Part shown: one piece after another, positions 11,563 through 29,103 of the stretch | Layout of the letters: each line of letters opens with the position of its first letter | How positions within the stretch are numbered: position 1 is the stretch's first letter | DNA from: Clostridia bacterium | GTDB taxonomy: Bacteria; Bacillota; Clostridia; UBA1381 | Assembly (NCBI GenBank): GCA_017443895.1 | Contig: JAFSXU010000058.1 | Coordinates: forward strand, 1 to 64,000 | Length of the DNA stretch: 64,000 bases | Direction of reading: 5' to 3' | The notes under the pieces: generated by a model | The model's database searches: none | The model's input: only the letters and a program-made list of their open reading frames with translations | Told to the model about the DNA's origin: nothing | Position numbers and translations under genes: made by a program

Positions 11563-13848
11563 TTATTTGAGTGTTGTCCAGACCATTGTTTCAATAACAT
11601 CTGTTTCGGGGTCAAAATCTGAAGGCAATTCATAATTTGTTGATAATTCAAAATCGCCCAATGCTACCCTGTCGCCAAAGGTTGTAACGGTGCAAACACC
11701 CTTTAGTACACCCTCTGCCGATTTTATTGCTACTATAAACACAACATCGTCGTTATAGTAGAAATTCTTTTCGCCGTAAATCTTTACAATCTTTGTGCCG
11801 TCCTCATTGATACCGATATTGTTAATCTTGAATGTATCGGATGACTGGATTGTAATATTGGCTGTTGATTCTACGCCTGTGCTTGTTTTTGCACGGACTG
11901 TTATAGTCTGCGGTTTAACTATTGCAGATGTTGTTACAAGTCCACTATCACTTATTGTGATAGTGTCGTCTAAAATTGGCAATCCGTCACTGTCAAGCAC
12001 TGACCATGTAAAGTCTGAATATGCACTTCCAAGCGATAGGCCGCATCGTGAGGCAGTCGCTTCAAACTGCGCTGTCGCACCTGCCGACATATAGTTACCC
12101 GGTGCGGTTACGGATATTGAATCAGCTATAACAGTTGAAATTTTGAGATTGTCTATCTTAAGACCTGTTGTAAATACTATTTTACCGTAGTTCTTATCAT
12201 TTCTTCTGTTACAGTTTGCCATAGTCTTTACAAGACTCTTATTACCGTTATCATCGTACTTGTATACATTATAACCTGATGTATTACCGCTAAGATATAC
12301 AAATTCTATATGATACCATGCATCAAAATCTGCATTTGCAATAACTGTATCCCACTTACTACCACCTGTCTGCTGAGCAATATTTGAGCCATGAACTCTG
12401 ATATTTGAGTTTTCTGAGCCATTGTTATTAAACAATGTAAGACCATGACCTTCAACACCGTCAAATTTAATATCTGCCTCTGTCAAAACATAGCTTGACT
12501 GGTCGCCAAAACCGTATGTAATATTATCCGATGTCAATAATGCATTTGAGCCGTCCCATGACGGTGTAAGAGATGTATTTGTGATTACCTCCTCACATGC
12601 ACTGTATGACAATACATTTTCCTTTTGCGAATCAGCCCACGCAATCGATACAGGTACGCCGTTTGAAATCTTACCGCTCTTTGACATTGCTTTTAGTGTA
12701 ATATCCTGTGCGATAACGCTCTCATCAACCGTTAAAACTCCGTCTGAAACAGTCATAAATTTGTTAGCGTTTTTGATTATTCCGCTTGCATCATATACTG
12801 CCCATACAACATCAGAAGATGTTAAAGTGTTTGTTACATCAACACCGTCCTTTGCGGCGGTATATGAATATGTTGCGCTCTTTCCTGCTTTTACTGTTGC
12901 AGGACCTGTAATATTGATAGTATCAAACTTTTCATTGTCTGTTTGGACTGCATTGATTTTAACCTGCTTAGTACCAACCAATGTCTTATCGCCAAAGGTC
13001 GCCGTTGCACGAACTGTTACAGTCTGTGACGGTGCGTCAATATTCGCCGATAATATACCGCTCGTTGAAATAGTTACACCGTCGGTAACAGGATTTTCAT
13101 TTGCCTCATCATATACAGACCAAGAAACAGAATATTTTGTATACTCAACATTCTGGCGTGTCATTGTATAGTCAAATGCATTGTTCGTACCTGCGTTCAT
13201 TTCATCAGCTAATGATGTCAATGTAATAGTATCGGGCTTTAGAGCAATAAGCTTTATATTGTCAACTGTGGCGTTTTGCACGCCGATACCGTTAAATGTT
13301 CTGTTCTCTGATGAGATGTTTCTGAAACTCAAATTCTTCGTTTCCTGAACAAGAGTTTTAGCCCCATCTACATACTTATACAATCTGCCTGTTGTATACT
13401 GGGTACCCTGTCCTGTTTTACCCTCAACTTCAAAGGTATACCAATCGCCTACAGTCATTGCACCAAGTTGCTGTTTTGATGAACTGCCTGTATCGGTGGT
13501 AAGCTGTCCGTTTGTATATTTTAGAGTTAAACCAACCTTATTTACAGTTGTGGTTGTTGAATTTTTGTACATCGGAGTTTCAATATATCCGCTTTCATTG
13601 GTAAAATTAAAGTCAAATGATAAGAAAAACTCCTTTGTAGTATCAAGGCTTGTAACCACAAGTCTGTTTAAGTCAGTGCCGACAACCATTGCAGGAGTAC
13701 CGTCAACGCCTGTACCTGTACCGTCATCAAATGTAAGGTTTTGGTCTACAATATCGTAGCTTGATGCAGTGTAGTCGGCAAAAGCTGTTAAGCCCGCACT
13801 CGTTACAAGGAGTGCGCCTGTTATAATTAAAGATATTATTTTTTTCAT
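11563..13848 (-). CDS. Secreted 761-aa Ig-like / lectin-like surface protein
   Basis: Signal peptide at 1-24 (MKKIISLIITGALLVTSAGLTAFA) after an AAGGAGG site. Two concanavalin-like segments (about 30-205 and 425-555; each reads like a LamG-type fold with W-Y-FEVEG or W-YHIEFVY strands) alternate with three Ig-like repeats of the kind TVTVRA-A-FGDKTLVGT-Q. The last ~75 residues are a form of the C-terminal module shared with three other secreted proteins here, ending ETMVWTTLK. No catalytic motif was recognised. It starts 13 bp after the GH2 gene and is probably co-transcribed with it, so a carbohydrate-binding or scaffolding role on the same substrate is a reasonable inference. Confidence 0.75.
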   Translation of the reverse strand: MKKIISLIITGALLVTSAGLTAFADYTASSYDIVDQNLTFDDGTGTGVDGTPAMVVGTDLNRLVVTSLDTTKEFFLSFDFNFTNESGYIETPMYKNSTTTTVNKVGLTLKYTNGQLTTDTGSSSKQQLGAMTVGDWYTFEVEGKTGQGTQYTTGRLYKYVDGAKTLVQETKNLSFRNISSENRTFNGIGVQNATVDNIKLIALKPDTITLTSLADEMNAGTNNAFDYTMTRQNVEYTKYSVSWSVYDEANENPVTDGVTISTSGILSANIDAPSQTVTVRATATFGDKTLVGTKQVKINAVQTDNEKFDTINITGPATVKAGKSATYSYTAAKDGVDVTNTLTSSDVVWAVYDASGIIKNANKFMTVSDGVLTVDESVIAQDITLKAMSKSGKISNGVPVSIAWADSQKENVLSYSACEEVITNTSLTPSWDGSNALLTSDNITYGFGDQSSYVLTEADIKFDGVEGHGLTLFNNNGSENSNIRVHGSNIAQQTGGSKWDTVIANADFDAWYHIEFVYLSGNTSGYNVYKYDDNGNKSLVKTMANCNRRNDKNYGKIVFTTGLKIDNLKISTVIADSISVTAPGNYMSAGATAQFEATASRCGLSLGSAYSDFTWSVLDSDGLPILDDTITISDSGLVTTSAIVKPQTITVRAKTSTGVESTANITIQSSDTFKINNIGINEDGTKIVKIYGEKNFYYNDDVVFIVAIKSAEGVLKGVCTVTTFGDRVALGDFELSTNYELPSDFDPETDVIETMVWTTLK

Positions 13849-13861
13849 TTCAGTGCCCTCC

Positions 13862-16800
13862 TTACTGTGCTACCGTGATATTTACAACCTGATCGGCTGT
13901 GTTCTTTGAATAAGAGATACCCAAAGCTGATAACATCTTCTCAATATTGGCTATAAATACACCGTTTGTAATTCTCGGATAGTCAACACACTCATCAGGA
14001 ACATCGTTTGTATACATCTGATTTATGTTTTCAATATACTTATGAACATTACCGCCCTGTGTAACTGTCAAGATTGCGCTGTCTCCGGAATCGTCATATA
14101 CATAGCTAAAGCTTGTATCGCCAGCCTCCTGTACAGCCTTTAAGATATCAACCATAGGTCCGAATAATGTATCCATTGTACCTAAGTAAGTCTTACCCTC
14201 TGTTACAAGTGGCTCGTCGTTTACTGTAACGCTATAGTATACAGTATCATCAACTGTTTCAACCGTCTTTACATTTGCCCAGCTTATAAATCCCTTCTTT
14301 AACATTAACGGCTTCATCTGAGGAACATTAACCGTTACAGGTGCTTCTTTTGCACCCGGTGCCAAAATTGACGGCATAGCCAATGTAAGTCCGCCTGTCT
14401 CCTCAACAGCTTCAGATGTGATTGATGTTGAAACTGCCGGAATACCGTCCATTGATGCGGATAATGTGAATGTACCTGCTTTTCTTGTTGAACGGATAAA
14501 TATTCTGTTTGTACCGTTCTCTGCATATACATAGTTCTTGCCTATAGTTGATGTGCCTGACTTATCTCCACCGAAGTAGTTTGAAAGTCCTGCGGTTGCA
14601 GTTGTGTTCTGATAACAGTTTGCACCTGAACCGCTGTTATATCCGCCAAGATACTGACCTTCACCTGAATATGTGAAATTGATCTTGTCATAATTAAGAG
14701 CGCAAACATTTCCGTTCTTGTCTATTACTTCAACATCTACATACGCAATATCCGCACCGTCTGCTCGCCAGTCGGTTGTTGCATTGCCGCTTTGATCTTC
14801 TTTTACTGCGGTATGCGGTGTAAGTCTTAGTGATACTGCATCATATGTTCTTGCAATCTCGTCTGTTGCTACAAGCTCGTCACGGCCGTTATATGCCTTT
14901 GCAATAACTCCGTCACCAACTGTTATATCAATATTATTAAACTCATATATAAAGCTGTTTGAAGGTGATGTATCTGTTCCGATAAGAGTTTCATTATCGC
15001 CGTCAAGCCTGTACAGTTCAACCTTTGAAACAGCAACCGAACCTACAACATATACTGTCTTGTTATACGGATCACGCTTATACTTCTTTGTAGTATCGTA
15101 CAATTCATATGAATGTGTACCGTCAATCTCTACCTGATTTGTTCCGTAATAGTTATATGTATCATCATTAAGCTCAGGATATGACCAGTGACCTACAATA
15201 TGCACCTGTGCATCAGATGCCTGTGCAACCTTTGTTGTATAGAAGGACTCCTTTGTCTGACGGACAGGGTCAACTCTACCTGATGTACGACAGTTTTCCG
15301 TTCCTGTGTTTCTTGTGTGCATGTTAGAGTCTGACCATACCATCATAGCGGCTGCACTGTAAATGCTGTTACCGGAGCCTGCACGGTTTGAATAGTAATC
15401 ATTGTATTCCTTTAACACATTGATTGCATTATCCTCAGAGGTCTCGTTCCATACATCGTAGCCGTCTGATTTTCCACCCTTTGAAATGAACTTGTTTACA
15501 TAGTCAAAGTCAGGCGGTGAATATCTGTCCCAAACTCGTCTCGGTGCCTCGTTACGGGCATACTCTGTTTCCATAATAGGTCCGTAAATTCCGTTTGCCT
15601 TCATTGCGGCAATTGCACCCTTGTCAGTTGTACCGCCGTACATTGTACCGGCATAGTTATTTTCATAGTTTAACTGATCTGCACCTGTGGTTGATCTTGC
15701 ACCGATAAATCTCATACCGTAAGGGTCAACAAGATCATAAATTCTCTTCATATCATCAGCATTAGCCTTAGAGCCTACAGAGGAGTTACCTGTCTCCCAG
15801 AATACAACAGATGGGCTGTTTCTAAAATATATCATTGCATCACGCATTGCCTCAGTTCTCTGCGACCAGTTTCTGCCCTCAAGACCTGTACCTTCCTTAT
15901 CACCTGCCGGACATACAACCGCAACACCGTAACGGTCTGACGATCTTACCTCGGCAGGCTTTGGAGCTACATGCATCCAACGAATGAAGTTAGAATTATT
16001 CTCCTTTAATAAAGCCATATCATAGTCCTGCAACCAATCTGTTGCAACACCGATTACTGCCCATTCGTTTGTTGAACGCTGTGCATAACCGGGCATCCAT
16101 ACAGCCTTATCGTTAATCATAATACCTGTATCTTTGTTATAGCTTATCTTTCTGAAGCCTGTGTCCTTTTTCTGAACATCAATAACATTTCCGTTATCAT
16201 CCTTTAAGATTGTGTATACGGTGTATAAATACGGATCGTCTGTTGTCCAAAAACGCATATCGGACGCATTGTATGAAGCCTTGATATGTGTTACATCAAC
16301 AGTATTAACCTTTGTTAAGCCCTGCGGAGTAGTAAGATTTTCCTCGTCATATACATCACTCTCAACTGCGGTTTCAAATGTAACACCTGCATCTGTTGCG
16401 GTCTTAACCTGTGTTGCAGGACTTGAGAATGTATACTTTAAGTTTCCGTCTCCGTCTACAACCGCAACATCAAGTGTATAGCTTCCGTCTTTGCCGCTCT
16501 CGTTTCTTACCTCTGCATCAACAGTAATTGTTGCAGTTTTTGCTTTTATGTCAAAATTATCCGCATAGATATAGTTACCGGTTGTTTTTAGGTTATTATA
16601 AAGCGGTCTTGTCTGATAAACCTTGCCCGATACATGCAAATATGCATCATATACAAGACCGATTTGAGGCTCGTTAAAGTCCTTTGTATTCCATACATAC
16701 TGCCGTCCACTGCCCACTGTTGTTTTGTAGTTATCAGGTGTGTATGATGAGCCCCATTCCTCGCCAGGAACTGTCTCATATGGAATTCTGCCTGTTGTGC

Positions 16801-17359
16801 CTCTTGCTGTTGCACCATCGTTACATATTGCAATTACAGCCTGTGAACCCGGTGTTACATACGGTGTTAAATCAAAGCCCATTGCGGTAATTCCGGCCTC
16901 ATAATAGCCGACCTTCTCGCCATTACACCATACATATGCCGACTGACGAATACCCTCAAGCTCAAATATAAACTTATCGCCTTCGGGAACAGTTATCGTC
17001 TTTCTGTACAAAAGCACACTTCTGTAACCACCGCCTGCGTCATAGTTTGCGGCATTAAACGAGTTTGTGCCACCGCCTATACCGTGAGGGATAGATACTG
17101 TTTCCCAATCGGAATCGTCATAGTCCACATCATAGAATTTTTTTCCGTTCTTGTCAGCCTTTGCCATTGCACTCTGAATATCTACTGTAGTATTCGTATC
17201 GTAGAATTTCCAGTCAAGGTTCATATTGTATGTAACAGTTGTAGACTCGGGCGCAGTGTACTTTTCACCTATACCCGTATCATCAGCCAAAACATACATT
17301 GTTCCAAACATCTGCATAAGCATAATCAATGAAACAACCGCTGAAATAATTTTTTTCAT
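13862..17359 (-). CDS. Secreted glycoside hydrolase family 2-like protein with altered acid/base site
   Basis: 1165-aa secreted protein with a signal peptide at 1-25. It has the GH2 order: sugar-binding domain (W-VSIPHGIGGG; WCNGEKVGYYEAG), Ig-like domain (MRFWTTDDPYLYTV), TIM barrel (MPGYAQRSTNEWAVIG, WMHVAPKP), then Ig-like domains and a C-terminal region resembling a degenerate copper-amine-oxidase-N-like stalk. The nucleophile is probably the Glu of METEYA near residue 598. At the usual acid/base position, where GH2 enzymes have Asn-Glu, the sequence reads FWETGNSSVG (near 524), so the Glu appears to be Ser. It may be inactive, use another acid, or belong to a divergent subgroup. Beta-galactosidase/glucuronidase-type action on pectin side chains is a guess. 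It heads an operon with the 761-aa protein and is divergent from an AraC gene. Confidence 0.8.
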   Translation of the reverse strand: MKKIISAVVSLIMLMQMFGTMYVLADDTGIGEKYTAPESTTVTYNMNLDWKFYDTNTTVDIQSAMAKADKNGKKFYDVDYDDSDWETVSIPHGIGGGTNSFNAANYDAGGGYRSVLLYRKTITVPEGDKFIFELEGIRQSAYVWCNGEKVGYYEAGITAMGFDLTPYVTPGSQAVIAICNDGATARGTTGRIPYETVPGEEWGSSYTPDNYKTTVGSGRQYVWNTKDFNEPQIGLVYDAYLHVSGKVYQTRPLYNNLKTTGNYIYADNFDIKAKTATITVDAEVRNESGKDGSYTLDVAVVDGDGNLKYTFSSPATQVKTATDAGVTFETAVESDVYDEENLTTPQGLTKVNTVDVTHIKASYNASDMRFWTTDDPYLYTVYTILKDDNGNVIDVQKKDTGFRKISYNKDTGIMINDKAVWMPGYAQRSTNEWAVIGVATDWLQDYDMALLKENNSNFIRWMHVAPKPAEVRSSDRYGVAVVCPAGDKEGTGLEGRNWSQRTEAMRDAMIYFRNSPSVVFWETGNSSVGSKANADDMKRIYDLVDPYGMRFIGARSTTGADQLNYENNYAGTMYGGTTDKGAIAAMKANGIYGPIMETEYARNEAPRRVWDRYSPPDFDYVNKFISKGGKSDGYDVWNETSEDNAINVLKEYNDYYSNRAGSGNSIYSAAAMMVWSDSNMHTRNTGTENCRTSGRVDPVRQTKESFYTTKVAQASDAQVHIVGHWSYPELNDDTYNYYGTNQVEIDGTHSYELYDTTKKYKRDPYNKTVYVVGSVAVSKVELYRLDGDNETLIGTDTSPSNSFIYEFNNIDITVGDGVIAKAYNGRDELVATDEIARTYDAVSLRLTPHTAVKEDQSGNATTDWRADGADIAYVDVEVIDKNGNVCALNYDKINFTYSGEGQYLGGYNSGSGANCYQNTTATAGLSNYFGGDKSGTSTIGKNYVYAENGTNRIFIRSTRKAGTFTLSASMDGIPAVSTSITSEAVEETGGLTLAMPSILAPGAKEAPVTVNVPQMKPLMLKKGFISWANVKTVETVDDTVYYSVTVNDEPLVTEGKTYLGTMDTLFGPMVDILKAVQEAGDTSFSYVYDDSGDSAILTVTQGGNVHKYIENINQMYTNDVPDECVDYPRITNGVFIANIEKMLSALGISYSKNTADQVVNITVAQ

Positions 17360-17607: not shown

Positions 17608-18438
17608 ATGGCGATAATTTCCGTACGGCGACCGCACTATATGTATAGCTATGATAAGTTTCAGCCTGTAAATTTTGCATTTCATATGCACCAGTATTAT
17701 GAAATATTATATTTTGTAAAGGGCAATGCCAAATATGTTATTGAGAACAAGGAATTTGATATAGACGAGGGTGATGTGTTTATGACTCGTCCAAACGAGC
17801 TTCACACTATAATTTTCAGTTCAAATTCAATATATGAACGGCACTTTGTCCAGTTTGATGATGACTTTTTAAAAAGCCTTTCCCCCACTGTATATGAACG
17901 GGCAAATAATGTATTTTTTACTAATAAAATAAGCCGTGATGCAGTAAAGCAATATGGAATTGATAAGTTGTTTGAAGATATATCCGTATGTATGAGTAAA
18001 AAAAATGTCGAGTGGGATTTGCTTGCCAAAACATATATTGCGCAAATGCTTGTTGCAATTTGTAACATATATAATGCAAATGAATATACAACGAGTGTAT
18101 CATCAAAAAAAATAACGCTGATTAAACAATACTTAAATTCACATTTTACAGACGACTTTTCACTGCAAAAAATTGCCGGTGAAATGTTTATGAACAAATA
18201 TTATATGTGCCATATATTCAAAGAAGATGTTGGAATGACGATAAAGGAATATATTGAAACGCTTCGGTTTACATATGCTTTAAGGCTACACTATGAGGGC
18301 AAAAAGCTTTCAGATATTGCTTTAATGTGTGGATACAGTGATTATTCACTGTTTTATAAGAATTTTACAAAACACAGTAACGGCGTTTCTCCGACTGAAT
18401 TTTTTAAAAGCAACAACAGAACACCGCTTTCAATCTAA
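17608..18438 (+). CDS. AraC-family transcriptional regulator (cupin + HTH)
   Basis: 276-aa regulator. N-terminal cupin domain (FHMHQYYEILYFVKGNAKYV, then a DEGDVFMTRPNELH strand) and C-terminal double HTH (LQKIAGEMFMNKYYMCHIFK; IALMCGYSDYSLFYKNF; closing GVSPTEFFK). The ATG has AAGGAGG at 9 bases. It is divergent from the GH2 / 761-aa operon, mirroring the araC-SASA/GH95 pair at 7.8 kb, so it is the likely activator of that operon. The sugar signal is unknown. Confidence 0.9.
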   Translation: MAIISVRRPHYMYSYDKFQPVNFAFHMHQYYEILYFVKGNAKYVIENKEFDIDEGDVFMTRPNELHTIIFSSNSIYERHFVQFDDDFLKSLSPTVYERANNVFFTNKISRDAVKQYGIDKLFEDISVCMSKKNVEWDLLAKTYIAQMLVAICNIYNANEYTTSVSSKKITLIKQYLNSHFTDDFSLQKIAGEMFMNKYYMCHIFKEDVGMTIKEYIETLRFTYALRLHYEGKKLSDIALMCGYSDYSLFYKNFTKHSNGVSPTEFFKSNNRTPLSI

Positions 18439-18455
18439 CGAAGGCGGTGTTTTGT
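18420..18455. terminator. Terminator overlapping the end of the second araC
   Basis: AACACCGCTTTC (18420-18431) pairs with GAAGGCGGTGTT (18440-18451) with one G-T, followed by TTGTT on the plus strand. The araC stop codon is in the loop; the convergent flavodiiron-like gene stops at 18455. Confidence 0.75.
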
Positions 18456-19507
18456 TATCCTAAGCTATCTATAAACTTTTTTGTACATTCAATCAGTTCT
18501 TTTTCTTCGTTGCTGTCCATTTTCATAACAACGCCAAACGGTTTATCATAGACATTATACCGTAACATTTTTAAATGATGCTCCATAAAATATAAGCCCT
18601 CGCCGCTCCATGCATATGTGCCAAACAGCATACATGGTTTAAACTTATTTGTGACCTTATTTGTCAGGGCTATTATGTTCCATAAATCCGACGGCGCGTC
18701 TGCATTTACGGTATCCGTACCCAAAATAAGCGCTTTTGCGTTATCAATTTTTTGAGCCAGCTCCTTATATCCGCCCGAACCTATATCATGGATTTGATAG
18801 CTTATTTTCCTAACGGCAAGCACATTTTCAATTTCTTTTGCCATGTTATAAGTATTTCCGTAAACCGAATGATAAAGTATCAAAACTTCGCTGTTTTTTG
18901 TATCTGCAAGTTTTTTATAGTTATCAATAAATCCTTGTACATTATCCTTTATCGGCATACCGCTTCCTGTTAAAATACAGGATATATCGTATTTTTGTAT
19001 TTGGGAAACGGCATATAAAACCGATTGCGGCCTTTGTGACAAATATGACTTATAATAATCATCGGGACCCAAGATTGTTGAGCTAAACAAATCACATGAA
19101 AACAATATATTATTATAAACCGTAACCATACTGTCAGGCCAGTTTATATATGGAGTAAGTATAAATTTAAGTCCCAAAAGCTCCATACCGTCTTTTACCG
19201 AAATATTGTTATAACCAAATCCCAAATACTTGTCTATGAGCTTTAGAGCAGGAGTAGTTGCAATTACTTTTATGTCCCTGTTTTTCTCAAGCATTGCCTT
19301 TAGTGTCCCCATTCGGTTCATTTCGCAATGGTTTATTACAATGTATGAAATATCTTTTACGGACACAATTTTAGCAATGTCATTTATATATTCATCGGCA
19401 TATTCTTCCCCTACACCGTCAATAATGATATTCACATCCGATTTTATAAGGTAGGAATTATTCGAGTTTTTTGTGAATTTATAGATATTATCCGTGATTT
19501 TATCCAT
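18455..19507 (-). CDS. Flavodiiron-protein-like (A-type flavoprotein) with degenerate metal site
   Basis: 350-aa protein with a metallo-beta-lactamase-like domain (1-200) and a C-terminal flavodoxin domain (about 205-350, FMN loop YHSVYGNTYNMA). Canonical flavodiiron proteins reduce O2 or NO and have H-x-E-x-D-H, HWP, a later Asp and a final His as iron ligands. Here H60 and E62 survive, but the next two are N64 and R65. The HWPD position is NWPD (N122), D139 is kept, and the late His is absent (GSGMPI). A functional di-iron centre is therefore unlikely, while FMN binding looks intact. The protein is also about 50 residues shorter than usual. Its ATG directly follows the prmA stop, so it is translated with the dnaG-rpoD-prmA operon. 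It may be an electron-transfer or sensor derivative. Confidence 0.8.
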   Translation of the reverse strand: MDKITDNIYKFTKNSNNSYLIKSDVNIIIDGVGEEYADEYINDIAKIVSVKDISYIVINHCEMNRMGTLKAMLEKNRDIKVIATTPALKLIDKYLGFGYNNISVKDGMELLGLKFILTPYINWPDSMVTVYNNILFSCDLFSSTILGPDDYYKSYLSQRPQSVLYAVSQIQKYDISCILTGSGMPIKDNVQGFIDNYKKLADTKNSEVLILYHSVYGNTYNMAKEIENVLAVRKISYQIHDIGSGGYKELAQKIDNAKALILGTDTVNADAPSDLWNIIALTNKVTNKFKPCMLFGTYAWSGEGLYFMEHHLKMLRYNVYDKPFGVVMKMDSNEEKELIECTKKFIDSLG

Positions 19508-20482
19508 TTATGCCTCCTGCTTGCAGACTATGGACATCCAATCCTTACGCTGTGAAATATCGGTTATATGAAAATTATTCCTGCCGAGCGCTTCTTTTAC
19601 ATCTTCTACCCTGTCTGTTATTATACCCGATGTTATAAATGTACCGTCGGCTTTTACATATTTCTTTGCTGTTGGCGTCAAGGCAATAATAACATCTGCC
19701 ACAATATTTGCAAGCACAATATCATATTCCTCCATAGCTATTTTTTTCTGCAATTCTGTATCGGTTATTATATCCCCTGCATATACTGTATACCTATCAT
19801 CGTCAATACCGTTTCTTTTTGCATTCTCATATGCAATATCAACAGCATTTTTGTCAATATCAACTGCGACCGCCTTTTTTGCTCCCAAAAGCAACGCTAT
19901 AATTGACAAAATTCCGCTGCCACAGCCAAGATCAAGTACTTTCATACCCGGCTTTATGTACCTTTCAAGATTTATAAGACAAAGCTGTGTTGTTTCATGA
20001 GAGCCTGTGCCAAAGCTAAGTCCGGGCTCAATATTGAAAATAACCCTGTCGGTATCATTATTTACTTCTTCCCATACAGGCTTTATGAGGATTTTTTCAC
20101 CTATTTCAATGGGATGATAGTATTTTTTCCAGTTATTTGCCCAATCCTCCTCATTTATTCCGTCTGTTTCAACAGCCAGTCTGCCAAATTCATTAGCGGT
20201 ATCTGCTGACCGCATAATATTTAATTCATTTTCTATTGACAAAAGCATTTCATGACCGGATGCATTATTGCTTACATATACAATAACTCTTGTTTCGCCC
20301 TGCATCTGTTTTATAACTTTTTCGTCTACATAGTCCCAATACTGCTTGTTATTATCCAAAAAATCATTAAAATCCGCCTCGTCCTCAATCTCAAAGCCTG
20401 TTATACCGATATTCATAAGCCTTCCGGTAAGCGGTTCTATACCGTTGGCTGTAGTAAAAATTGTAACTTTAATCCATTCCAT
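19508..20482 (-). CDS. prmA: Ribosomal protein L11 methyltransferase
   Basis: 324-aa SAM-dependent methyltransferase that trimethylates ribosomal protein L11. The AdoMet motif I is VLDLGCGSGILSI, preceded by the PrmA signature EPGLSFGTGSHETT; motif IV is the DIVLANIVADV stretch. The start at 20482 (MEWIKVTIFTT) has GGGAG at 8 bases, whereas the ATG 15 bases upstream overlaps that site. It lies 51 bp after rpoD, with a possible RNA switch in the gap, and its stop abuts the flavodiiron-like ATG. Confidence 0.95.
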   Translation of the reverse strand: MEWIKVTIFTTANGIEPLTGRLMNIGITGFEIEDEADFNDFLDNNKQYWDYVDEKVIKQMQGETRVIVYVSNNASGHEMLLSIENELNIMRSADTANEFGRLAVETDGINEEDWANNWKKYYHPIEIGEKILIKPVWEEVNNDTDRVIFNIEPGLSFGTGSHETTQLCLINLERYIKPGMKVLDLGCGSGILSIIALLLGAKKAVAVDIDKNAVDIAYENAKRNGIDDDRYTVYAGDIITDTELQKKIAMEEYDIVLANIVADVIIALTPTAKKYVKADGTFITSGIITDRVEDVKEALGRNNFHITDISQRKDWMSIVCKQEA

Positions 20483-20492
20483 AAAATTATCT

Positions 20493-20527
20493 CCCATATA
20501 TAAATGGGCTGTTATAAAAAACAGCCC
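20493..20527 (-). promoter_or_regulatory. Alternative hairpins covering the prmA ribosome binding site
   Basis: In the minus-strand RNA, GGGCUGUU (20520-20527) pairs with AACAGCCC (20506-20513). The same CCC, extended to CCCAU (20504-20508), can instead pair with AUGGG (20493-20497), which contains the GGGAG ribosome binding site of prmA. The two stems are mutually exclusive, so the first stem could expose the site. There is no T tract, so it is not a normal terminator. Confidence 0.45.
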
Positions 20528-20533
20528 TTATAA

Positions 20534-21610
20534 TCAGTTATCCAAAAAATCCTTTAATCTCTTTGAACGGCTTGGGTGACGGAGTTTTCTTAACGCCTTT
20601 GCCTCGATCTGGCGTATACGCTCCCTTGTCACATTAAATTCCTTACCCACCTCTTCAAGAGTTCTTTGCCGTCCGTCCTTTAAGCCAAATCTGAGCTTTA
20701 AAACCTCCGACTCCCGTGGTTGCAAGGTCTGTAAAACATCGACAAGCTGTTCCTTTAACAGAACAAAGCTCGCAGCCTCTGACGGCGCAGGCGCATCATC
20801 ATCGGGAATGAAATCGCCCAAATGACTGTCCTCCTCCTCGCCGATAGGAGTTTCCAACGATACAGGCTCTTGCGAAATTTTTGAAATTTCCCTTACCTTT
20901 TCAACCGACATATTAAGCTCCTGCGCAAGCTCCTCGGGGGTTGGTTCTCTGCCTAATTCCTGTACCATTTGACGGGATACTCTTACTAATTTATTGATAG
21001 TTTCAACCATATGAACGGGTATTCTTATTGTCCTTGCCTGGTCTGCAATGGCACGCGTTATAGCCTGTCTTATCCACCATGTTGCATAAGTAGAGAATTT
21101 ATAGCCTTTTGTATAGTCAAATTTATCAACAGCTTTAATAAGTCCTAAGTTTCCCTCCTGTATTAAGTCAAGAAACTGCATACCACGGCCTACATAGCGT
21201 TTTGCAATTGAAACAACTAATCTCAGATTTGCCTCTGCAAGACGCTTTTTTGCAAGCTCATCACCCTCAGACATACGCTTTGCAAGGTCAAGCTCCTCCT
21301 CGGGTGTCAAAAGATTGACCTTGCCAATCTCTTTTAAGTACATCTTTACATGGTCGTCAATATTTATTCCCTCGGGAACAGATAAATCCTCAAGCTCCTC
21401 TTTGGAAACCTCTATTTCCTCAAGCTCCTTGTCCATATTATCGACAATTTCAATTTCCTCTTTCTCGAGTCTGTCATAGACCTTTTCAAGCTCCTCGGGG
21501 GTTATCTCTACCTCCGAAAATGCCTCGGCAATCTCCTGACGGCTCAAAACTCCCTTTTTCTTGCCGTTTTCAAGAAGCTCTTTCTTTATGGCTTTTTTCT
21601 TCTCCTGCAT
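20534..21610 (-). CDS. rpoD: Primary sigma factor SigA/RpoD
   Basis: 358-aa housekeeping sigma-70. A short acidic N-terminal region 1.1 is followed by region 1.2 ([22 protein letters not shown]), region 2 with the -10 recognition helix [17 protein letters not shown], region 3 and the region 4.2 HTH ([20 protein letters not shown]) that reads the -35 box. Length and order are typical of Clostridia. The stop of dnaG abuts its ATG, with GGAGG inside the end of dnaG, which indicates translational coupling in the conserved dnaG-rpoD macromolecular-synthesis operon. rpsU is absent at the head, as usual in this phylum. Confidence 0.97.
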
Positions 21611-23422
21611 TTACTGTTCCTCCCACTTATTTTTCTTATCTTCAAGCTGTTTCTTTTCGTTAAACAGCTCCATAAGCCTTTTCGCATCCGTTTCGCTGTC
21701 TATTTGCGTTTGGATTTTGCCTATTTTTATGGTGTATATAAGGTCATATATAACCTGAGTATCACCCGTATATACCTCCATATTATAGAATACCGATGAC
21801 GCCTCGTTCATTTCCTCGTCATTTGCACAAAAATCATTTAAGATAATTGCCTCCTGCGGATTTTCTCCGTTTTGGTAGCTTTGGTATATTTTTGTTGCCA
21901 AACGGCGGAATATATCTTTTGAAAATTCATCGGGTGTTATTTCTTTTTTTGCAATATTATAAAATCTTTTATTAGACACAATCAGACTTAAAAGTCTTTT
22001 TTGTGCGCCTAATAAAGCTGGGGGTACTTTTTGAGATACACCGTTTACTTGAACCTTTTCTATTCTTTTTTGCTCTATATTATTTCGGGCTCGGATTTGA
22101 TTTTTATATTTATCCTTTGCGCTTTTTTCCTTGTACTTACTAAGGACAGCATCTTTATTTACATCCATATCCCGTGAAATTTTTGTAATATATGCATCAA
22201 TCTCGATAGGGTCATGTACGGTTTTAAATACATCCACAACTTCATCCAAAAACTTAACCTTGCCGTCGGTTGTTGATGTATCATAAGCAGATTTTATCAG
22301 TGATATTCTGAATTCAGTTGACGGAACGGATTTTTTTACAGCCTCGCGAAAACGCTCAACTCCGTTTTTATTTATGTATTCGTCCGGATCCTTTGCACCT
22401 TTTAGCTTTATAACCCTTGATTTTCCGCCAACTTCGTTGATTATATCTATCGCACGCAGGGTAGCCTTTATACCTGCCTCATCACTGTCATAGCAAATAA
22501 GGATTTCATTTGCATAGCGCATCATGAGCTTTGCCTGATCGGGCGTTATTGCCGTACCTAAGGTTGCAACAATATTTTTTACGCCTGCTTGGTAGGTAGA
22601 AATTACATCCATATACCCCTCGCAGAGGATAATCTCGGATTTTTGTTCATTCTTGGCAATATTTAAAGAGAATAAATTTTTGCCCTTATCAAAAACCACA
22701 GTTTCGGAGCTGTTTAGGTATTTTGGTATTTTATATCCGTTTATTTCCTTGTTATTGTGCATAATTCTGCCGCCAAAGCCGATTACATCACCACGCACAT
22801 TTATAATGGGAAACATTACCCTGTCACGGAATTTGTCAATAGCCCTACCCTCACGCATAACCGCAAGACCGCCCTCAACTATTTCATGCTCCAAATAGCC
22901 CTTGCCTTTTAAATAGTTTAGCAATGTGTCCTTGCTTTTTGGTGCATAGCCAAGACCGTAGGTTGTAATGGTTTTTGATGAGATCTTTCTGCTTAAAAAA
23001 TATCTCTGTGCATTCATTCCCAGTTCCTTATCACACAGGCAGTTATGAAAGAACCTTGCGGATAATCTGTTCATTTCAAGGACTTTTTTCTTTTTTTCGT
23101 GGTTTTCGTTGTTAAAATCCTCTTCATCGGGAATTATTATGCCTACCCTGTCTGCAAGCACCTTAATTGAGTCAACAAAATCAAGATTTTCAGCCCGCAT
23201 AACAAACTGAACAAGATTTCCCGATGCACCGCAGCCAAAGCAATGAAACAACTGCTTGTCACGGCTTACATGAAACGACGGAGTTTTTTCGTTATGAAAT
23301 GGACACAATCCGCTGTAATCTCTGCCCGATTTTTTAAGGGCAACATACTGCGATACATAATCAACTATGTCATTCTGATTGCATATCTCAGATATGAGGT
23401 CATCGGATATTCTGCGTGCCAT
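21611..23422 (-). CDS. dnaG: DNA primase
   Basis: 603-aa primase that makes RNA primers at the replication fork. Domains: CHC2 zinc finger (CPFHNEKTPSFHV, then CFGCGASGN), catalytic core, TOPRIM (EGYMDVIS and the DSDEAG metal-binding motif), and a C-terminal helicase-interaction region. I chose the ATG at 23422 (MARRISDDLI) because GGGAGGTGA sits just upstream; a longer in-frame start adds 17 residues but has no such site. First gene of the operon with rpoD, prmA and the flavodiiron-like gene. The promoter in the AT-rich upstream stretch is not obvious. Confidence 0.96.
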   Translation of the reverse strand: MARRISDDLISEICNQNDIVDYVSQYVALKKSGRDYSGLCPFHNEKTPSFHVSRDKQLFHCFGCGASGNLVQFVMRAENLDFVDSIKVLADRVGIIIPDEEDFNNENHEKKKKVLEMNRLSARFFHNCLCDKELGMNAQRYFLSRKISSKTITTYGLGYAPKSKDTLLNYLKGKGYLEHEIVEGGLAVMREGRAIDKFRDRVMFPIINVRGDVIGFGGRIMHNNKEINGYKIPKYLNSSETVVFDKGKNLFSLNIAKNEQKSEIILCEGYMDVISTYQAGVKNIVATLGTAITPDQAKLMMRYANEILICYDSDEAGIKATLRAIDIINEVGGKSRVIKLKGAKDPDEYINKNGVERFREAVKKSVPSTEFRISLIKSAYDTSTTDGKVKFLDEVVDVFKTVHDPIEIDAYITKISRDMDVNKDAVLSKYKEKSAKDKYKNQIRARNNIEQKRIEKVQVNGVSQKVPPALLGAQKRLLSLIVSNKRFYNIAKKEITPDEFSKDIFRRLATKIYQSYQNGENPQEAIILNDFCANDEEMNEASSVFYNMEVYTGDTQVIYDLIYTIKIGKIQTQIDSETDAKRLMELFNEKKQLEDKKNKWEEQ

Positions 23423-23585
23423 TTCATCACCTCCCATCGTGTTTATAAGCCTTGACAAATTGTGAAAAAACAATACCTATTTTATCCAAATTTGCATTTT
23501 TTCAAACATAACTCTTAATATAATACTAAAACAAAAACTAAAATTCCTTTATTTTTAACAAAAAAATCAAAAAATATTTCTAATC

Positions 23586-23617: not shown

Positions 23618-24529
23618 TCACTCATTTAAAACCAAACTTCCGACTAAATCATTTATATCAGAAATTCCGAATTTATTGCAATATTCCTCAATATCACGCT
23701 TGACATCAAGAATTAAATCGGGCTTTATAAACATACCTGTACCCAAAGCAACAAGCGATGCACCTGCTATCATAAATTCAATTACATCTGCTCCTGACAT
23801 TACACCGCCCATACCGATTATCGGAATATCAACCGCTTTGTAGACCTCGTGTACCATTCTTATTGCCACAGGCTTAATTGCAGGGCCTGAAAATCCGCCC
23901 GTGTTATTTGCAAGAACAGGCCGTCTTGTGTTTATATCAATTTTCATACCAAGAAGCGTATTTATTAAAGATAGTCCGTCTGCACCGCCGCGCTGTGCGG
24001 CAAGGGCAATATCGGTAATTGATGTTACATTCGGGCTTAGCTTAACAACAAGCGGTTTTTTTGAAACCGTCTTTACCTCTTTTGTAAGCTCGTATACAAC
24101 ATCGGGATTTGTTCCAAATGCCATTCCTCCATGCTTTACATTCGGACATGATATGTTCATCTCAATAATATCGACATCGCTGTCAGATAACATTTGTGCC
24201 ATTTGGCAATATTCCTCAATAGTATTGCCCGACATATTTGCAATGATGTTGGTATCATATTCTCTTATATGAGGCATTAAATCCTCCAAAAAGCTCTCAA
24301 TGCCGGGATTTTGCAGACCGACGCTGTTTAATATCCCCATTTCTACTTCTGCAATTCTTGGCGGTTTGTTTCCGCCCCGTGGGTATCTTGTTATACCCTT
24401 TGTTCCGATGCCACCATACTCGGATAACGGCGCATATTCGTTATACTCATCACCAAATCCGAATGTTCCCGATGCTGTTACAATTGGGTTTTTAAATTCG
24501 ACACCGCAAAAATTAACTTTCATATTCAT
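23618..24529 (-). CDS. pyrD: Dihydroorotate dehydrogenase B, catalytic subunit
   Basis: 303-aa class 1B dihydroorotate dehydrogenase, oxidising dihydroorotate to orotate with FMN. Hallmarks are the N-terminal GVEFKNPIVTASGTFG, the catalytic Cys in NISCPNVKHGG, the FMN-phosphate site IPIIGMGGVMSG, and the terminal GTGMF. It works as a heterotetramer with PyrK, passing electrons to NAD+. It overlaps pyrK by one base (TGATG), indicating coupling. Last gene of the pyr operon; pyrE is not in the window. Confidence 0.96.
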   Translation of the reverse strand: MNMKVNFCGVEFKNPIVTASGTFGFGDEYNEYAPLSEYGGIGTKGITRYPRGGNKPPRIAEVEMGILNSVGLQNPGIESFLEDLMPHIREYDTNIIANMSGNTIEEYCQMAQMLSDSDVDIIEMNISCPNVKHGGMAFGTNPDVVYELTKEVKTVSKKPLVVKLSPNVTSITDIALAAQRGGADGLSLINTLLGMKIDINTRRPVLANNTGGFSGPAIKPVAIRMVHEVYKAVDIPIIGMGGVMSGADVIEFMIAGASLVALGTGMFIKPDLILDVKRDIEEYCNKFGISDINDLVGSLVLNE

Positions 24530-25290
24530 CAGAGCTTCACCACCTTTGAATCAAATACAGGACCGTTTTTGCAAACTCTTAAATACTTGTTTGTACCCTC
24601 AAATATACTCTCGCACACGCACACAAGACAAGCGCCGATACCGCAGCCCATACGCTGCTCAAGTGATATTTGACATTCAATGCCGTTTTCCTCGGCAATC
24701 CCCTTTACCGCTTTTAGCATTGGCATAGGTCCGCACGAGAAAATAACATCACACGGATTATTTTTTATATAATGCTCCATTGCGTTTGCAATATAACCGT
24801 TATAGCCGTAGCTTCCGTCATCGGTTCCTACAATGCACATTTTTGAAACACTATCAAACTCATCCTCCATGCACACCCTGTCCTTGTTTCTAAAGCCCAA
24901 GAACACATTTGCATTACTGTTAAGCTCCTTTGCAAGCTTAAATAACGGAAAAATACCTATTCCGCCCCCAATTATAAGCGGATTTTTATAGTTTTTAATT
25001 TCAAAGCCATGTCCTAACGGTCCTAAAACATCAATATATTCACCCACTTGCTTTTGCGACAATTCCTTTGTCCCCTCGCCTTTTACCTCAAAGATAAAGC
25101 GTACTTTGTCATCAAAAGCATCGCAAATACTTATAGGCCGTCTTAAAAATGACTTGTCTCCGCAGTCAATATGCAAAAACTGACCGCACTTTGTCTTTTT
25201 TGCGATATTCTCATTTTCTACGGTGAAATCAAAAACACCGTTCACTATCTCTGTTTTTGAAATCACTTTGCATTTTTCAATTTGTTCCAT
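24529..25290 (-). CDS. pyrK: Dihydroorotate dehydrogenase B, electron-transfer subunit
   Basis: 253-aa FAD/[2Fe-2S] protein that links PyrD to NAD+. It has an FAD-binding domain (FLRRPISICDAF), an NAD-binding domain (GGGIGIFPLFKLA; FSCGPMPML) and a C-terminal iron-sulfur ligand set (C-G-I-G-A-C-L-V-C with a later Cys in RVCKNGP). I start it at ATG 25290 (MEQIEKCKV), with AGAGG just upstream and only 11 bp after the pyrF stop; a longer frame would overlap the end of pyrF by 79 bases and adds nothing resembling the family. Confidence 0.95.
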   Translation of the reverse strand: MEQIEKCKVISKTEIVNGVFDFTVENENIAKKTKCGQFLHIDCGDKSFLRRPISICDAFDDKVRFIFEVKGEGTKELSQKQVGEYIDVLGPLGHGFEIKNYKNPLIIGGGIGIFPLFKLAKELNSNANVFLGFRNKDRVCMEDEFDSVSKMCIVGTDDGSYGYNGYIANAMEHYIKNNPCDVIFSCGPMPMLKAVKGIAEENGIECQISLEQRMGCGIGACLVCVCESIFEGTNKYLRVCKNGPVFDSKVVKL

Positions 25291-25301
25291 ATTTAAACCT
25301 C

Positions 25302-26216
25302 TTATAAAACAGAATTTATATCGTCCTTCATACGAAGCGCCTCGCATCGTGCAGCCTCGGCAAATTCTTCCTCTTTCCAATCGCCTTTTTTATATGCGCA
25401 CATTATACCTCTTGAGGAATTAACTATTGCGCCCAAGCCGTCATCATTAAAACACGGTTTTACGCCCATCGCACCTCCGCCCTGAGCGCCGTAGCCGGGC
25501 ACTAAGAAATACGACTGCTTCATTATCTGTCTTAAAACCTTTGCCTGTTCGGGGTAAGTTGCTCCTACAACCGCACCTACTGCACCGTATCCGCTTTTTC
25601 CTATAGTTTCGCCGTTCCATTTGTTCACACATTCAGCCACCTGCTCATAAATGTGCTTATCCCCTGATATTAAATCCTGCAACTCGCCCGATGACGGATT
25701 TGAGGTTTTAACAAGGGCAAAGATTGATTTATCGTATTTTATACAATCATCAACAAAGGGTGCTATTCCGTCCGTTCCAAGATAGGGATTTACCGTTACA
25801 CAGTCAACATCAAAGGGTGATACCTCCATACCGCCAATATCCACTTGTCCAAGATATGCCTTTGAATATGCCTCGGCAGTTGAGCCTATATCGTTTCTCT
25901 TTACATCAAGGATTATATATAAACCCTTGCTTTTTGCGTATTTTATAGTTTCATGCAGTGCCATCTCGCCATCAATGCCGTACATTTCATAAAATGCAGA
26001 CTGTGGCTTTATTGCAGGCACTACATCATATAAAGCATCAATAAGGCCTTTATTAAACTCTAAAATTGCCTCTGAGGCGCCCTTTAGATTTTTTCCGTAC
26101 TCATTAAAGCATTTTTTTACAATATATTCGGGCACATACTCAAGTTTCGGGTCAAGTCCCGCAACCGACGGATTAGATTTTTCCTTAATCTTTTCAACCA
26201 ATAAATCCACTGACAT
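25302..26216 (-). CDS. pyrF: Orotidine 5'-phosphate decarboxylase
   Basis: 304-aa type 2 OMP decarboxylase, the last step to UMP. The catalytic motif is LDVKRNDIGSTA (D-x-K-x-x-D), and LVPGYGAQGGG forms the phosphate loop near the C-terminus. The length near 300 aa, longer than the ~240-aa type 1 enzymes, fits the type common in Clostridia. ATG directly follows the pyrC stop (TAAATG), with AGGAAAG upstream inside pyrC. Confidence 0.95.
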   Translation of the reverse strand: MSVDLLVEKIKEKSNPSVAGLDPKLEYVPEYIVKKCFNEYGKNLKGASEAILEFNKGLIDALYDVVPAIKPQSAFYEMYGIDGEMALHETIKYAKSKGLYIILDVKRNDIGSTAEAYSKAYLGQVDIGGMEVSPFDVDCVTVNPYLGTDGIAPFVDDCIKYDKSIFALVKTSNPSSGELQDLISGDKHIYEQVAECVNKWNGETIGKSGYGAVGAVVGATYPEQAKVLRQIMKQSYFLVPGYGAQGGGAMGVKPCFNDDGLGAIVNSSRGIMCAYKKGDWKEEEFAEAARCEALRMKDDINSVL

Positions 26217-27509
26217 TTATCTTTCCTCCAAAATACCGTTATTTACTCTTATCTTTCCGCCTACAATTACATATTCGGGCTTACCGTAAAGCTTAAATCC
26301 GTCATACGGCGAATTCTTGCTCTTTGATGCAAATTCATTAACATTAACAACCCATTCCTTGTTTATATCAAAGATTGTAATATCCGCATCTGCACCAACC
26401 GATAAAGTTCCCTTGTCAATATTTAAAATTCTTGCAGGCTTTATCGACATCAGCGCAATAAGCTCGTTTAATGTCAGCTTATTCGTTTTTACAAGATATG
26501 TAAGTCCTAAAGCAAGCGATGTTTCAAGACCTACTATTCCGTTAAGCGCAAGAGAAAATTCGCAGTTTTTCTCGTCAATATGATGCGGTGCGTGGTCGGT
26601 AATAATTGCATCAATCGTTCCGTCCAAAAGTCCCTCGATTATTGCCTCAACATCATCGTCCGTCCTTAGAGGCGGATTCATTTTTGCATTTGTGTTAAAC
26701 CCGTCAACCGCTTTTTCGGTAAGCGTAAAATAATGCGGTGCAGTCTCACAGGTTACCTTAACTCCACGCTTTTTACCTTGCCGTACCAAATCCACCGTAC
26801 CTCTTGTGCTCACATGTGCGATATGCACCGCTGTGTTTGTAGCCTCGGCAATTAAAATATCCCTTGATGCCTGTACCTCCTCGGCGGCTCTTGTTATACC
26901 TCTTAAGCCTAAGTATGTGGACATAAATCCTTCGTTTATATCCCCATCATCTGCTAATGACAAATCCTCACAATGCGATATTACGGGAAGATTAAACATC
27001 TGGGCATACTGTAATGCACGCCTCATAAGAATGGGCTCTGATACAGGTCTGCCGTCATCAGATACCGCAACCGCACCCGCCTCTTTTAAATCGCCCATTT
27101 CAGACAGTTCTTTACCCTGCATACCTTTAGATATTGTACCTATAGGAAATACATTTACATAACCGTAATTTTTGGCTCTGTCCTTAATATATGTTACAAC
27201 CGCCGCATTGTCGGCAACAGGCTTTGTATTTGGCATACACGCAACCGATGTTACACCGCCCATAACGGCAGCCTTCGTACCGCTTACAATATCCTCTTTG
27301 TATTCAAAGCCGGGTTCTCTTAAATGAACATGCATATCAACCAGTCCCGGAACGACATATTTACCGCTTGCATCTATTACCTTGTCGGCAGTATCTGTTA
27401 TATCCTTATCAACTTTTTTTATTTTTTCATCCTCAACAAGAACATCAAGCACATCATCAATATTATTTGCAGGGTCTATGATATGACCGTTTTTTATAAG
27501 TATCTTCAT
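26217..27509 (-). CDS. pyrC: Dihydroorotase
   Basis: 430-aa class I dihydroorotase of the amidohydrolase fold, cyclising carbamoyl-aspartate to dihydroorotate. Metal ligands are visible in DMHVHLREPG, in HCEDL and HIAHVST, and in the late ITDHAPHH. Length matches the ~425-430-aa Gram-positive PyrC. Stop codon abuts the pyrF start. The gap to pyrB holds a small tandem repeat. Confidence 0.96.
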   Translation of the reverse strand: MKILIKNGHIIDPANNIDDVLDVLVEDEKIKKVDKDITDTADKVIDASGKYVVPGLVDMHVHLREPGFEYKEDIVSGTKAAVMGGVTSVACMPNTKPVADNAAVVTYIKDRAKNYGYVNVFPIGTISKGMQGKELSEMGDLKEAGAVAVSDDGRPVSEPILMRRALQYAQMFNLPVISHCEDLSLADDGDINEGFMSTYLGLRGITRAAEEVQASRDILIAEATNTAVHIAHVSTRGTVDLVRQGKKRGVKVTCETAPHYFTLTEKAVDGFNTNAKMNPPLRTDDDVEAIIEGLLDGTIDAIITDHAPHHIDEKNCEFSLALNGIVGLETSLALGLTYLVKTNKLTLNELIALMSIKPARILNIDKGTLSVGADADITIFDINKEWVVNVNEFASKSKNSPYDGFKLYGKPEYVIVGGKIRVNNGILEER

Positions 27510-27533
27510 AATCCGTAAAAATTCCTTTCACTA

Positions 27534-27590
27534 CTACCTATTCACTATTCACAGCTACCTATTCACTATTCACTATTACTTATTACTTAA
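27534..27590. repeat. Short tandem repeats between pyrB and pyrC
   Basis: CTACCTATTCACTATTCAC occurs exactly twice (27534-27552 and 27555-27573; 21-bp period) and runs on into further TATTCAC / TTATTAC units up to the pyrB stop. It looks like slippage-prone simple sequence; no hairpin or protein site is evident. Confidence 0.7.
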
Positions 27591-28513
27591 TATAGTCCGC
27601 CTCTTGATAATAAATACATAACCGCCATTCTGACTGCCACACCCGATGTTACCTGGTCATCAATCACACTTTGTTCCCCGTCAACAACCGATGATGAAAG
27701 CTCAACGCCACGGTTTACAGGTCCCGGGTGCATAAGGAGTGCGTCTTTTTTTGCAAGCTTTAGCCTATCTTCGTTTATGCCGAAATATTTATGGTATTCC
27801 CTCACGCTTGGGAACAGCCCCTTTTTCTGACGCTCTAACTGAATTCTAAGTCCCATTACAACATCTGCATCCTTTAAAGCCTCATCAACATCTGTTGTAA
27901 CCTTTACTCCCATATCCTCCATTTTTTGAGGCAGGAGCGTTGCAGGTCCTGCCACGCATACATCTGCGCCCATGGCATTTAAGCCGTAAATATTGGATCT
28001 TACAACACGGCTGTGGTATGCATCACCTACTATTGCAACCCGTAAGCCCTTGAAATTTTCAAACGAGCCTAAATGCTCATACATTGTAAGCATATCCAAA
28101 AGTGCCTGCGTAGGGTGTTCGTTCATTCCGTCGCCTGCATTTATAACCGATGCCGAAACTATCGGCGCAATAACATTGGGCGCTCCGCTCATACTGTGTC
28201 GCATTACCAAAATATCCGTACCCATAGCATTAAGCGTCCTTGCAGTGTCAATTAAGGTTTCTCCTTTTTGCACGGATGAACCCGATGCCGTAATATTTGC
28301 AGCGTTTGCGCTCATATATTTTGCGGCAAGTTCAAATGACATTCTTGTTCTTGTACTGTTTTCGTAGAATAAATTTACAACTGTCCTGCCTTGAAGGTGC
28401 GGTGTTTTTTTATTTGGCTGAGATAGGATAAGCTTCATTGTTTTTGCAGTATCTAATATGTTTTTAATGCTATCGGTGCTCATACCCTTAAGCCCTAATA
28501 AATCCTGCTTCAT
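27587..28513 (-). CDS. pyrB: Aspartate carbamoyltransferase, catalytic subunit
   Basis: 308-aa enzyme joining carbamoyl phosphate and aspartate, the committed step of pyrimidine synthesis. The carbamoyl-phosphate loop is [11 protein letters not shown]; further landmarks are [22 protein letters not shown] at the C-terminal end and the 80s-loop region GSSVQKGE. There is no pyrI regulatory gene, consistent with the Gram-positive, unregulated PyrB type. Start has AAGGAGG; it lies 3 bp after pyrR. Confidence 0.96.
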
Positions 28514-28516
28514 TGC

Positions 28517-29068
28517 TTATGCCTCCTTGTCATGAATTGTTACTTTTCCAATCCTGTTATCATTTATAATCTCTACATTTATGTATTCGTTCTTGGATGT
28601 AGGAACAAACCTTCCCGTATAGTCAGGGCTTATCGGCAATTCCCTGTTTCCACGGTCGATTAAAACCGCAAGCTCTATTCTGTCGGGTCGCCCCAAATCA
28701 AACAGCTCTTCAATTGCCGCACGGATAGTTCTTCCCGAAAACAAAACATCGTCAACAAGGATTATTTTCATACCCTCTATTGCAAAGGTAATATCACTCC
28801 CCATTACGACAGGATGTTCGTTAAGTCTTGTTAAATCATCTCTGTAGAATGTTATATCAAGACTGCCCACAGGAATATCAACACCCTCTATTTCCTTTAT
28901 GCTCCTCGCAATTTGATGCGCCAGCCGTACACCCTTTGTCTGGATACCGATAATAGCCATATCAAAAACGCCCTTGTTTCGCTCTGCTATTTCATAAGCC
29001 ATTCTGCTTATCGCACGCTCTGCCGTCTTTTCATCCATCAAAGTACTTTTTATTTCACCAATAGACAT
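28517..29068 (-). CDS. pyrR: PyrR, bifunctional pyr mRNA-binding attenuator / uracil phosphoribosyltransferase
   Basis: 183-aa PRTase-fold regulator. The PRPP loop is ILVDDVLFSGRTIRAA, and RGNRELPISPDYTGRFVPTS is the C-terminal PyrR signature. In Bacillus it binds pyr leader RNA when UMP is high and causes termination. The ATG at 29068 has AAGGAG about 11 bases upstream; a TTG three codons earlier is too close to that site. First gene of the operon. Its leader is only about 30 bases, so the usual upstream attenuator is missing. Confidence 0.94.
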   Translation of the reverse strand: MSIGEIKSTLMDEKTAERAISRMAYEIAERNKGVFDMAIIGIQTKGVRLAHQIARSIKEIEGVDIPVGSLDITFYRDDLTRLNEHPVVMGSDITFAIEGMKIILVDDVLFSGRTIRAAIEELFDLGRPDRIELAVLIDRGNRELPISPDYTGRFVPTSKNEYINVEIINDNRIGKVTIHDKEA

Positions 29069-29103
29069 CTTTATCAAAACTCCTTGTAAAAGACATTTTT
29101 ACC

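Follow-up and report, generated by a model that had tools for sequence, protein, structure and literature searches.

The window analyzed here is a stretch of 64,000 nucleotides from a Clostridia bacterium (contig JAFSXU010000058.1 of assembly GCA_017443895.1, positions 1 to 64,000). At positions 18455..19507 (-) it contains an open frame for a flavodiiron-like protein of 350 amino acids, hereafter FDPx, an assignment made from the frame, Pfam and a structure model; a preliminary description of this DNA had delimited the gene correctly, and its strand is minus. Directly upstream lies prmA, the gene for the ribosomal protein L11 methyltransferase (19508..20497, (-)), an open frame whose ortholog in the related locus L044 matches Pfam PrmA. 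The TAA of prmA abuts the ATG of FDPx with a gap of 0, and an AGGAGG is situated within the last prmA codons ahead of that ATG. Two further open frames follow upstream, which we take to be rpoD (20534..21610, (-)), a position that it also holds in 44 of 45 further loci or frames whose prmA has sufficient upstream sequence, and dnaG (21611..23473, (-)), also assigned from gene order in relatives. The preliminary description held FDPx to be co-transcribed with all three genes: the order dnaG-rpoD-prmA-FDPx stands, but co-transcription with dnaG and rpoD is made doubtful by a predicted terminator-like hairpin in the interval between rpoD and prmA (20506..20527, (-)). This hairpin is putative, coming from a consensus scan with 11 terminator-like sites where 5.3 would be expected for the region; a promoter scan was not informative, giving 40 sites with an expectation of 29.1 (sd 6.5).

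The run of same-strand genes directly upstream of dnaG (23618-29077, (-)) presumably functions in pyrimidine synthesis. On its other side FDPx ends convergently with a gene for an AraC-like protein (17608-18438), and between the two gene ends is an inverted repeat, AACACCGC...GCGGTGTT (18420-18454), which judged by eye is a possible terminator for both strands. The AraC-like regulator is adjoined by two large proteins of 761 and 1165 amino acids with signal-peptide-like starts (11563-17359, (-)), the longer of which by eye resembles a β-galactosidase-type glycoside hydrolase.

Pfam and structure matches both show that FDPx comprises a metallo-β-lactamase-like domain followed by a flavodoxin domain. 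The first covers approximately residues 1-203 (18899..19507, (-)), as judged from a Pfam match over 16-146 and from matches to single-domain structures, with only an approximate boundary; the second covers approximately residues 206-350 (18455..18892, (-)), flavodoxin chains aligning to model residues 205/206-350. Pfam scores were 42.9 bits for ODP (cut-off 27.2) and 24.8 bits for Flavodoxin_1, which is 0.2 bits below its cut-off of 25. A sequence search against solved structures placed T. maritima 1vme on top (E 1.6e-36) and also recovered the Flv1 core, 6h0d/6h0c (E 3.7e-24/3.8e-24). The AlphaFold2 model, built as a single chain from a 44-row alignment, has a mean pLDDT of 92.9 and a pTM of 0.81; its top Foldseek match was 6h0d, a structure of the Flv1 core (E 1.1e-29), followed by E. 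coli and other flavodiiron chains, so that the best matches are all flavodiiron. A second structure aligner gave Z of 28.4 to 35.5 against full-length flavodiiron chains, at rmsd of 5.9 to 13.8, high values that may reflect a differing inter-domain angle. The alignment further supports the preliminary claim that the flavodoxin domain keeps its FMN loop. Three loops are discernible: 1) S214 to T219 (18851..18868, (-)), with S214 retained in 45 and T219 in 50 of 51 orthologs, which we take to be the FMN phosphate loop; 2) G263 to T266 (18710..18721, (-)), with T266 in 51/51; and 3) F295 to E303, FGTYAWSGE (18599..18625, (-)), with G296 and G302 in 51/51 and W300 in 50/51. The latter two are presumably further loops of the flavin site, and S214, G217, T219, G263, T266, G296, W300, G302 and E303 are all present in the window protein.

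The first domain presents a different picture. Ligand columns were read from an alignment with 83 flavodiiron homologs from outside the family, all 83 of which carry the full set H-E-D-H-H-D-H. At these columns FDPx has H60 (19328..19330), E62 (19322..19324), N64 (19316..19318), R65 (19313..19315), N122 (19142..19144), D139 (19091..19093) and S182 (18962..18964), all (-), so that three of the seven ligands are present (H60, E62 and D139) and the full set is absent. Excerpts of PMC13133992 assign Glu81, Asp166, His147 and His79 to the proximal iron and Asp83, Asp166, His84 and His227 to the distal iron. By these roles, as excerpted from PMC13133992, H60 and E62 are retained proximal ligands and D139 the retained bridging aspartate, N122 stands in place of a proximal histidine, and N64, R65 and S182 replace the distal aspartate and the two distal histidines. 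Hence the proximal site retains three of its four ligands and the distal site none of its three private ones, from which we predict that the known di-iron center cannot form in this protein. The ligand list of the preliminary description was exact, and the late histidine that it reported missing is S182. The same set, HENRND followed by S or E, recurs in all five genomes of the genus: the four others have HENRNDS in three cases and HENRNDE in one. A sequencing error, which a close homolog with full ligands would have pointed to, is ruled out as the cause of the loss, as is chance, since four relatives carry the same substitutions and none of the five genus members has the full set.

With three of four proximal ligands left, a single metal could still bind. 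Hence FDPx might in this genus be a one-metal protein, in which H60, E62 and D139 hold a single iron or zinc for a sensor, hydrolase-like or oxygen-binding function, and the Pfam match to the ODP oxygen-binding family agrees with this. All 5 genus members keep the proximal H, E and D, as do 18 of the 48 eroded orthologs of the family described below, the window copy among them. We nevertheless regard this as unlikely, as the fourth proximal ligand is gone (N122) and R65 would set a positive charge beside the site; moreover the trio is missing in 30/48 eroded copies, so that a family-wide role cannot lie here. Solved structures of the TM0755 variants H90A, H90N and H90D, altered in the column of R65, are still titled di-iron proteins, and loss of that histidine alone thus need not abolish iron.

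We searched 70 genomes of the bacterial family for orthologs of FDPx and found one in 51, the remaining 19 yielding none. Loss of di-iron ligands is common among these relatives, which answers affirmatively the question whether relatives share it at this locus. The full HEDHHDH is present in only three orthologs (G008, G010 and G013), and two have lost the second histidine only (G011, HEDNHDH; G019, HEDLHDH). The remaining 46 have eroded along differing paths, with outcomes that extend from HENRNDS in the genus of the window to, for example, TKEFPEK. Across the 51 copies seven ligands are kept in 3, six in 2, four in 4, three in 13, two in 9, one in 6 and none in 14. The second histidine, a distal-iron ligand, is gone in all 48 eroded copies, and 36 of these retain no private distal ligand. 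The contrast with the outside homologs is unlikely to come from their choice: these 83 comprise five loci of the same order and 78 of 80 named-genome loci (the best 80 of 566 relatives; L118 and L144, which duplicate G071 and G008, were left out), and the pattern used to scan for them sits in the flavodoxin domain and does not select for ligands. Substituted ligand cells are lysine or arginine in 50 of 243 cases (21%, against 12% over these proteins as a whole), and 41/48 eroded copies have at least one such residue at a ligand column; as related rows are not independent, this is only a hint of charge replacement at the eroded iron site. Two copies, HEHCPCI in L045 (G027) and HEHCPCN in L048 (G021), bring two cysteines and two histidines close together, perhaps as a new metal site of a small subclade; in the related G018 and G024 the cysteine pair is incomplete.

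Among columns at least 93% conserved in the outside homologs, mean retention in FDPx rises from 32% for the 7 ligand columns to 65% for 20 further columns of the first domain and 86% for 15 columns of the flavodoxin domain; D125, T266, G296 and G302 are invariant in 51/51 and T219 and W300 in 50/51. For FDPx, 12 of 13 pairs give a Nei-Gojobori dN/dS of 0.085-0.242, with G000-G002 saturated, and the value for G003-G004 of the window's genus is 0.12; dS exceeds 1 in several pairs. Both domains are under purifying selection, and the flavodoxin domain is overall no slower than the first domain, its dN being the greater in 6/13 pairs. The corresponding values for prmA are 0.05-0.08 in computable pairs, FDPx changing faster in every comparable pair. 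These figures bear on the notion that FDPx has been redundant since the acquisition of the second flavodiiron protein discussed below, and is in slow decay under loss. Its absence from 19/70 genomes, with an rsmE-like gene following prmA directly in six of them and at some distance in another, agrees with such a course, as do the single short copy (G044, 284 codons) and a dN/dS above that of prmA. However, 50/51 frames are of at least 335 codons, dN/dS is far below 1, and the four invariant residues named above are unchanged throughout; we therefore judge ongoing decay to be distinctly improbable. For the same reasons of dN/dS and frame length a pseudogene is unlikely.

In phylogenetic trees FDPx forms one clade (bootstrap/SH-aLRT 100/99), within which the intact copies branch earliest and have short branches. 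The two copies that lack only the second histidine are longer than their intact sisters (G011 1.09 vs 0.27 in G010; G019 0.68 vs 0.15 in G013), which suggests that loss of this residue was followed by faster change, a reading qualified by G011 being long in the prmA tree as well (0.68 vs 0.38). Together with five order-level relatives the FDPx tree needs two changes between the intact and eroded states. A quickly built prmA+rpoD tree, which includes three long branches and five rows that are half empty, scatters the intact genomes, grouping G008 with G055/G056, G010 with G011 and G012, and G013 with G019, G014 and G017, and hence implies more losses than two. AU tests were mixed: an FDPx tree constrained to group G013, G019, G014 and G017 could not be rejected (p-AU 0.157), and one constrained to group G008, G055 and G056 was rejected (p-AU 1.1e-6), long branches being involved. 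We therefore use two di-iron losses as the cautious number.

The state of FDPx is associated with a second flavodiiron protein, which in the window genome is L002, of 407 amino acids and with all seven ligands. Second proteins of this kind in the order have full ligands in 44 of 44 aligned, a G046 fragment of less than 330 residues having been left out of that alignment. FDPx and the second protein are only about 26% identical and lie on separate branches. The second enzyme was not found where FDPx is intact (G008, G010 and G013, which are 81%, 88% and 99% complete), and is present in 47/48 genomes with eroded FDPx, a count that includes G004 and G014, which show only short pieces at contig edges; the exception, G068, is 73% complete. 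The association has a Fisher p of 1.9e-4, or 9.6e-4 with the G004 and G014 pieces scored as absent; on the tree it reduces to two independent contrasts, both as expected, with which significance is unreachable. Outside the family, the order-level genomes G071, G078, G091 and G093 have an intact FDPx relative and no second enzyme among the matches listed, and G092 has both together. Second-enzyme dN/dS is 0.04-0.20 over five pairs; FDPx is faster in three of the four pairs with values from both, and the two are equal in G036-G047. Some family members have a longer second flavodiiron protein of about 600 amino acids (L205 in G003, 1206-3032), in which flavin-reductase and rubrerythrin-type rubredoxin domains follow the core, unlike the 407-residue form of the window's genome.

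This co-occurrence could also arise if FDPx formed a heterodimer with the second enzyme, lending its FMN to the intact di-iron site of the latter, for which Flv2/Flv4 of cyanobacteria, proposed to be a heterodimer in excerpts of PMC4390876, offer a precedent. Such a pairing would account for an eroded FDPx being accompanied by the second enzyme in 47/48 genomes. It is, however, rather improbable in our estimate, as the two proteins are so divergent, FDPx outpaces prmA wherever they could be compared and the second enzyme in three of four pairs, and G068 has the eroded protein without a detected partner. We lean instead towards a succession, in which the second enzyme took over and FDPx became an FMN protein without a di-iron center that serves in flavodoxin-like electron transfer.

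The other constant associate of FDPx is prmA, which lies beside it in 49/51 genomes and is the adjacent same-strand upstream gene in 47; in the remaining two (G004 and G052) FDPx is near a contig edge and prmA falls outside those loci. In two genomes both genes form one continuous frame: 700 codons in G053 (L044, 3059-5161), which matches Pfam PrmA, ODP and Flavodoxin_1, and 634 codons in G054 (L041, 1985-3889). Chosen FDPx starts overlap or abut prmA in 29/47 genomes and are at most 30 bases away in 43/47; these starts were picked by rule and some are doubtful, as three overlaps of 62-89 bases look overlong and an inner ATG accounts for three (G008, G010 and G013) of four large gaps. Upstream, rpoD is present in 44/49 prmA-linked loci, and four of the five loci without it have less than 100 bases left there; G034, with 3121 bases upstream and neither rpoD nor dnaG, is a true exception. 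Among 11 of the 19 genomes without FDPx from which prmA was fetched, the next same-strand gene is rsmE-like in six (G012, G059, G063, G064, G066 and G067), an rsmE-like gene follows after about 500 bases in G065, another gene occupies the place in G058, and the DNA ends too soon after prmA in G029, G061 and G046. We take the gene in question to be rsmE. An rsmE-like gene also occurs just past FDPx in nine FDPx genomes, and hence in some lineages FDPx stands between prmA and rsmE. Of the two links, that to prmA has been preserved. It appears to be a trait of the family: with flanks of up to 6 kb, many of them shorter, prmA is absent at the five order-level loci (L192-L196) and at 79 of 80 loci from named genomes (the best 80 of 566), the sole locus with it, L144, being G008, a family member. 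The earlier proposal of a role tied to growth was based on gene order alone; of that order the prmA link is tight and the rest is not.

Known systems offer several points of comparison: 1) Cyanobacterial Flv1 and Flv2 likewise have a flavodiiron core without canonical ligands (excerpts of PMC4390876), and the Ser, Asn, Lys, Arg and His that the excerpted review text gives for the site of Flv1B (PMC6616624) are similar to the replacements in FDPx, whose first Foldseek match is, as noted, an Flv1 core. They differ in belonging to class C, which has a third, flavin-reductase-like domain (excerpts of PMC4390876), while FDPx is of the two-domain type, its 350-residue chain ending with the flavodoxin domain and having no Pfam Flavin_Reduct match; FDPx furthermore occurs in Clostridia-related genomes, is linked to prmA and arose in another branch of the family. 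2) Class A flavodiiron proteins (TM0755, M. thermoacetica FprA and D. gigas ROO) share the two domains of FDPx, the model giving Z of 32.5-34.8 against 1vme, 1ycf and 1e5d, with 1vme also the top sequence match; these are described as di-iron enzymes and FDPx keeps 3/7 ligands. 3) The ODP oxygen-binding chemotaxis sensor has a related β-lactamase-like domain (Pfam ODP; Z about 23-25), but its chains of 233-252 residues match only the first domain of FDPx, which lacks the full metal set and is no stand-alone domain, as a flavodoxin domain follows. By analogy, FDPx may work most like Flv1/Flv2 minus the third domain. Ligand-less flavodiiron proteins are described from oxygenic phototrophs, their metal binding and O2 reduction being debated (excerpts of PMC4390876 and PMC6616624), and our search of titles and abstract starts of open-licence papers found no prmA-linked or clostridial one. 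Flv1/Flv2 are the known precedent, and what is new here is the lineage, the graded erosion and the linkage to prmA, with fusion in two genomes.

Because the seven-ligand set is incomplete, we class FDPx, on its residues, as a flavodiiron homolog and not as a functional flavodiiron protein. The preliminary description proposed a conserved role other than oxygen reduction, with electron transfer and redox sensing as candidate functions. The broken center, the shared loss, purifying selection and the kept flavin-site residues make such a role likely, but a single conserved variant center does not survive the comparison, as erosion runs along several paths and three of 51 orthologs are intact. Hence FDPx has probably turned to a new, putative job. 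The succession favored above would have proceeded as follows: the second flavodiiron protein, of another subtype, may have come to cover O2/NO reduction, and the prmA-linked copy, relieved of this task, would have lost its iron ligands, the second histidine every time, leaving an FMN protein of two domains. R65 of the window protein may make up for the charge gap. The FMN would accept electrons from a donor and pass them to a partner protein. Studied flavodiiron proteins are head-to-tail dimers in which the FMN of one chain is beside the metal of the other (excerpts of PMC13133992 and PMC6033852); in such a dimer the old iron pocket of FDPx could serve as a scaffold or docking surface.

The FDPx family offers a graded series at one locus, with copies that are intact, have lost one ligand, several or all, and with close sister pairs (G010/G011 and G013/G019). 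This makes it testable which natural ligand losses abolish iron and activity, and what function a flavodiiron core has once its di-iron center is gone. The steady link and natural fusion also point to PrmA as a candidate partner. A bolder and quite doubtful extension is that FDPx is a redox partner of the translation machinery, made with PrmA and binding it or its substrate, which would couple the methylation of ribosomal proteins to cellular redox state; the evidence for this is thin, comprising the linkage, often abutting or overlapping, and the fusion in two related genomes. If such a tie to PrmA were true, the repeated loss of the di-iron center would mark a change from an O2/NO reductase to a flavin switch.
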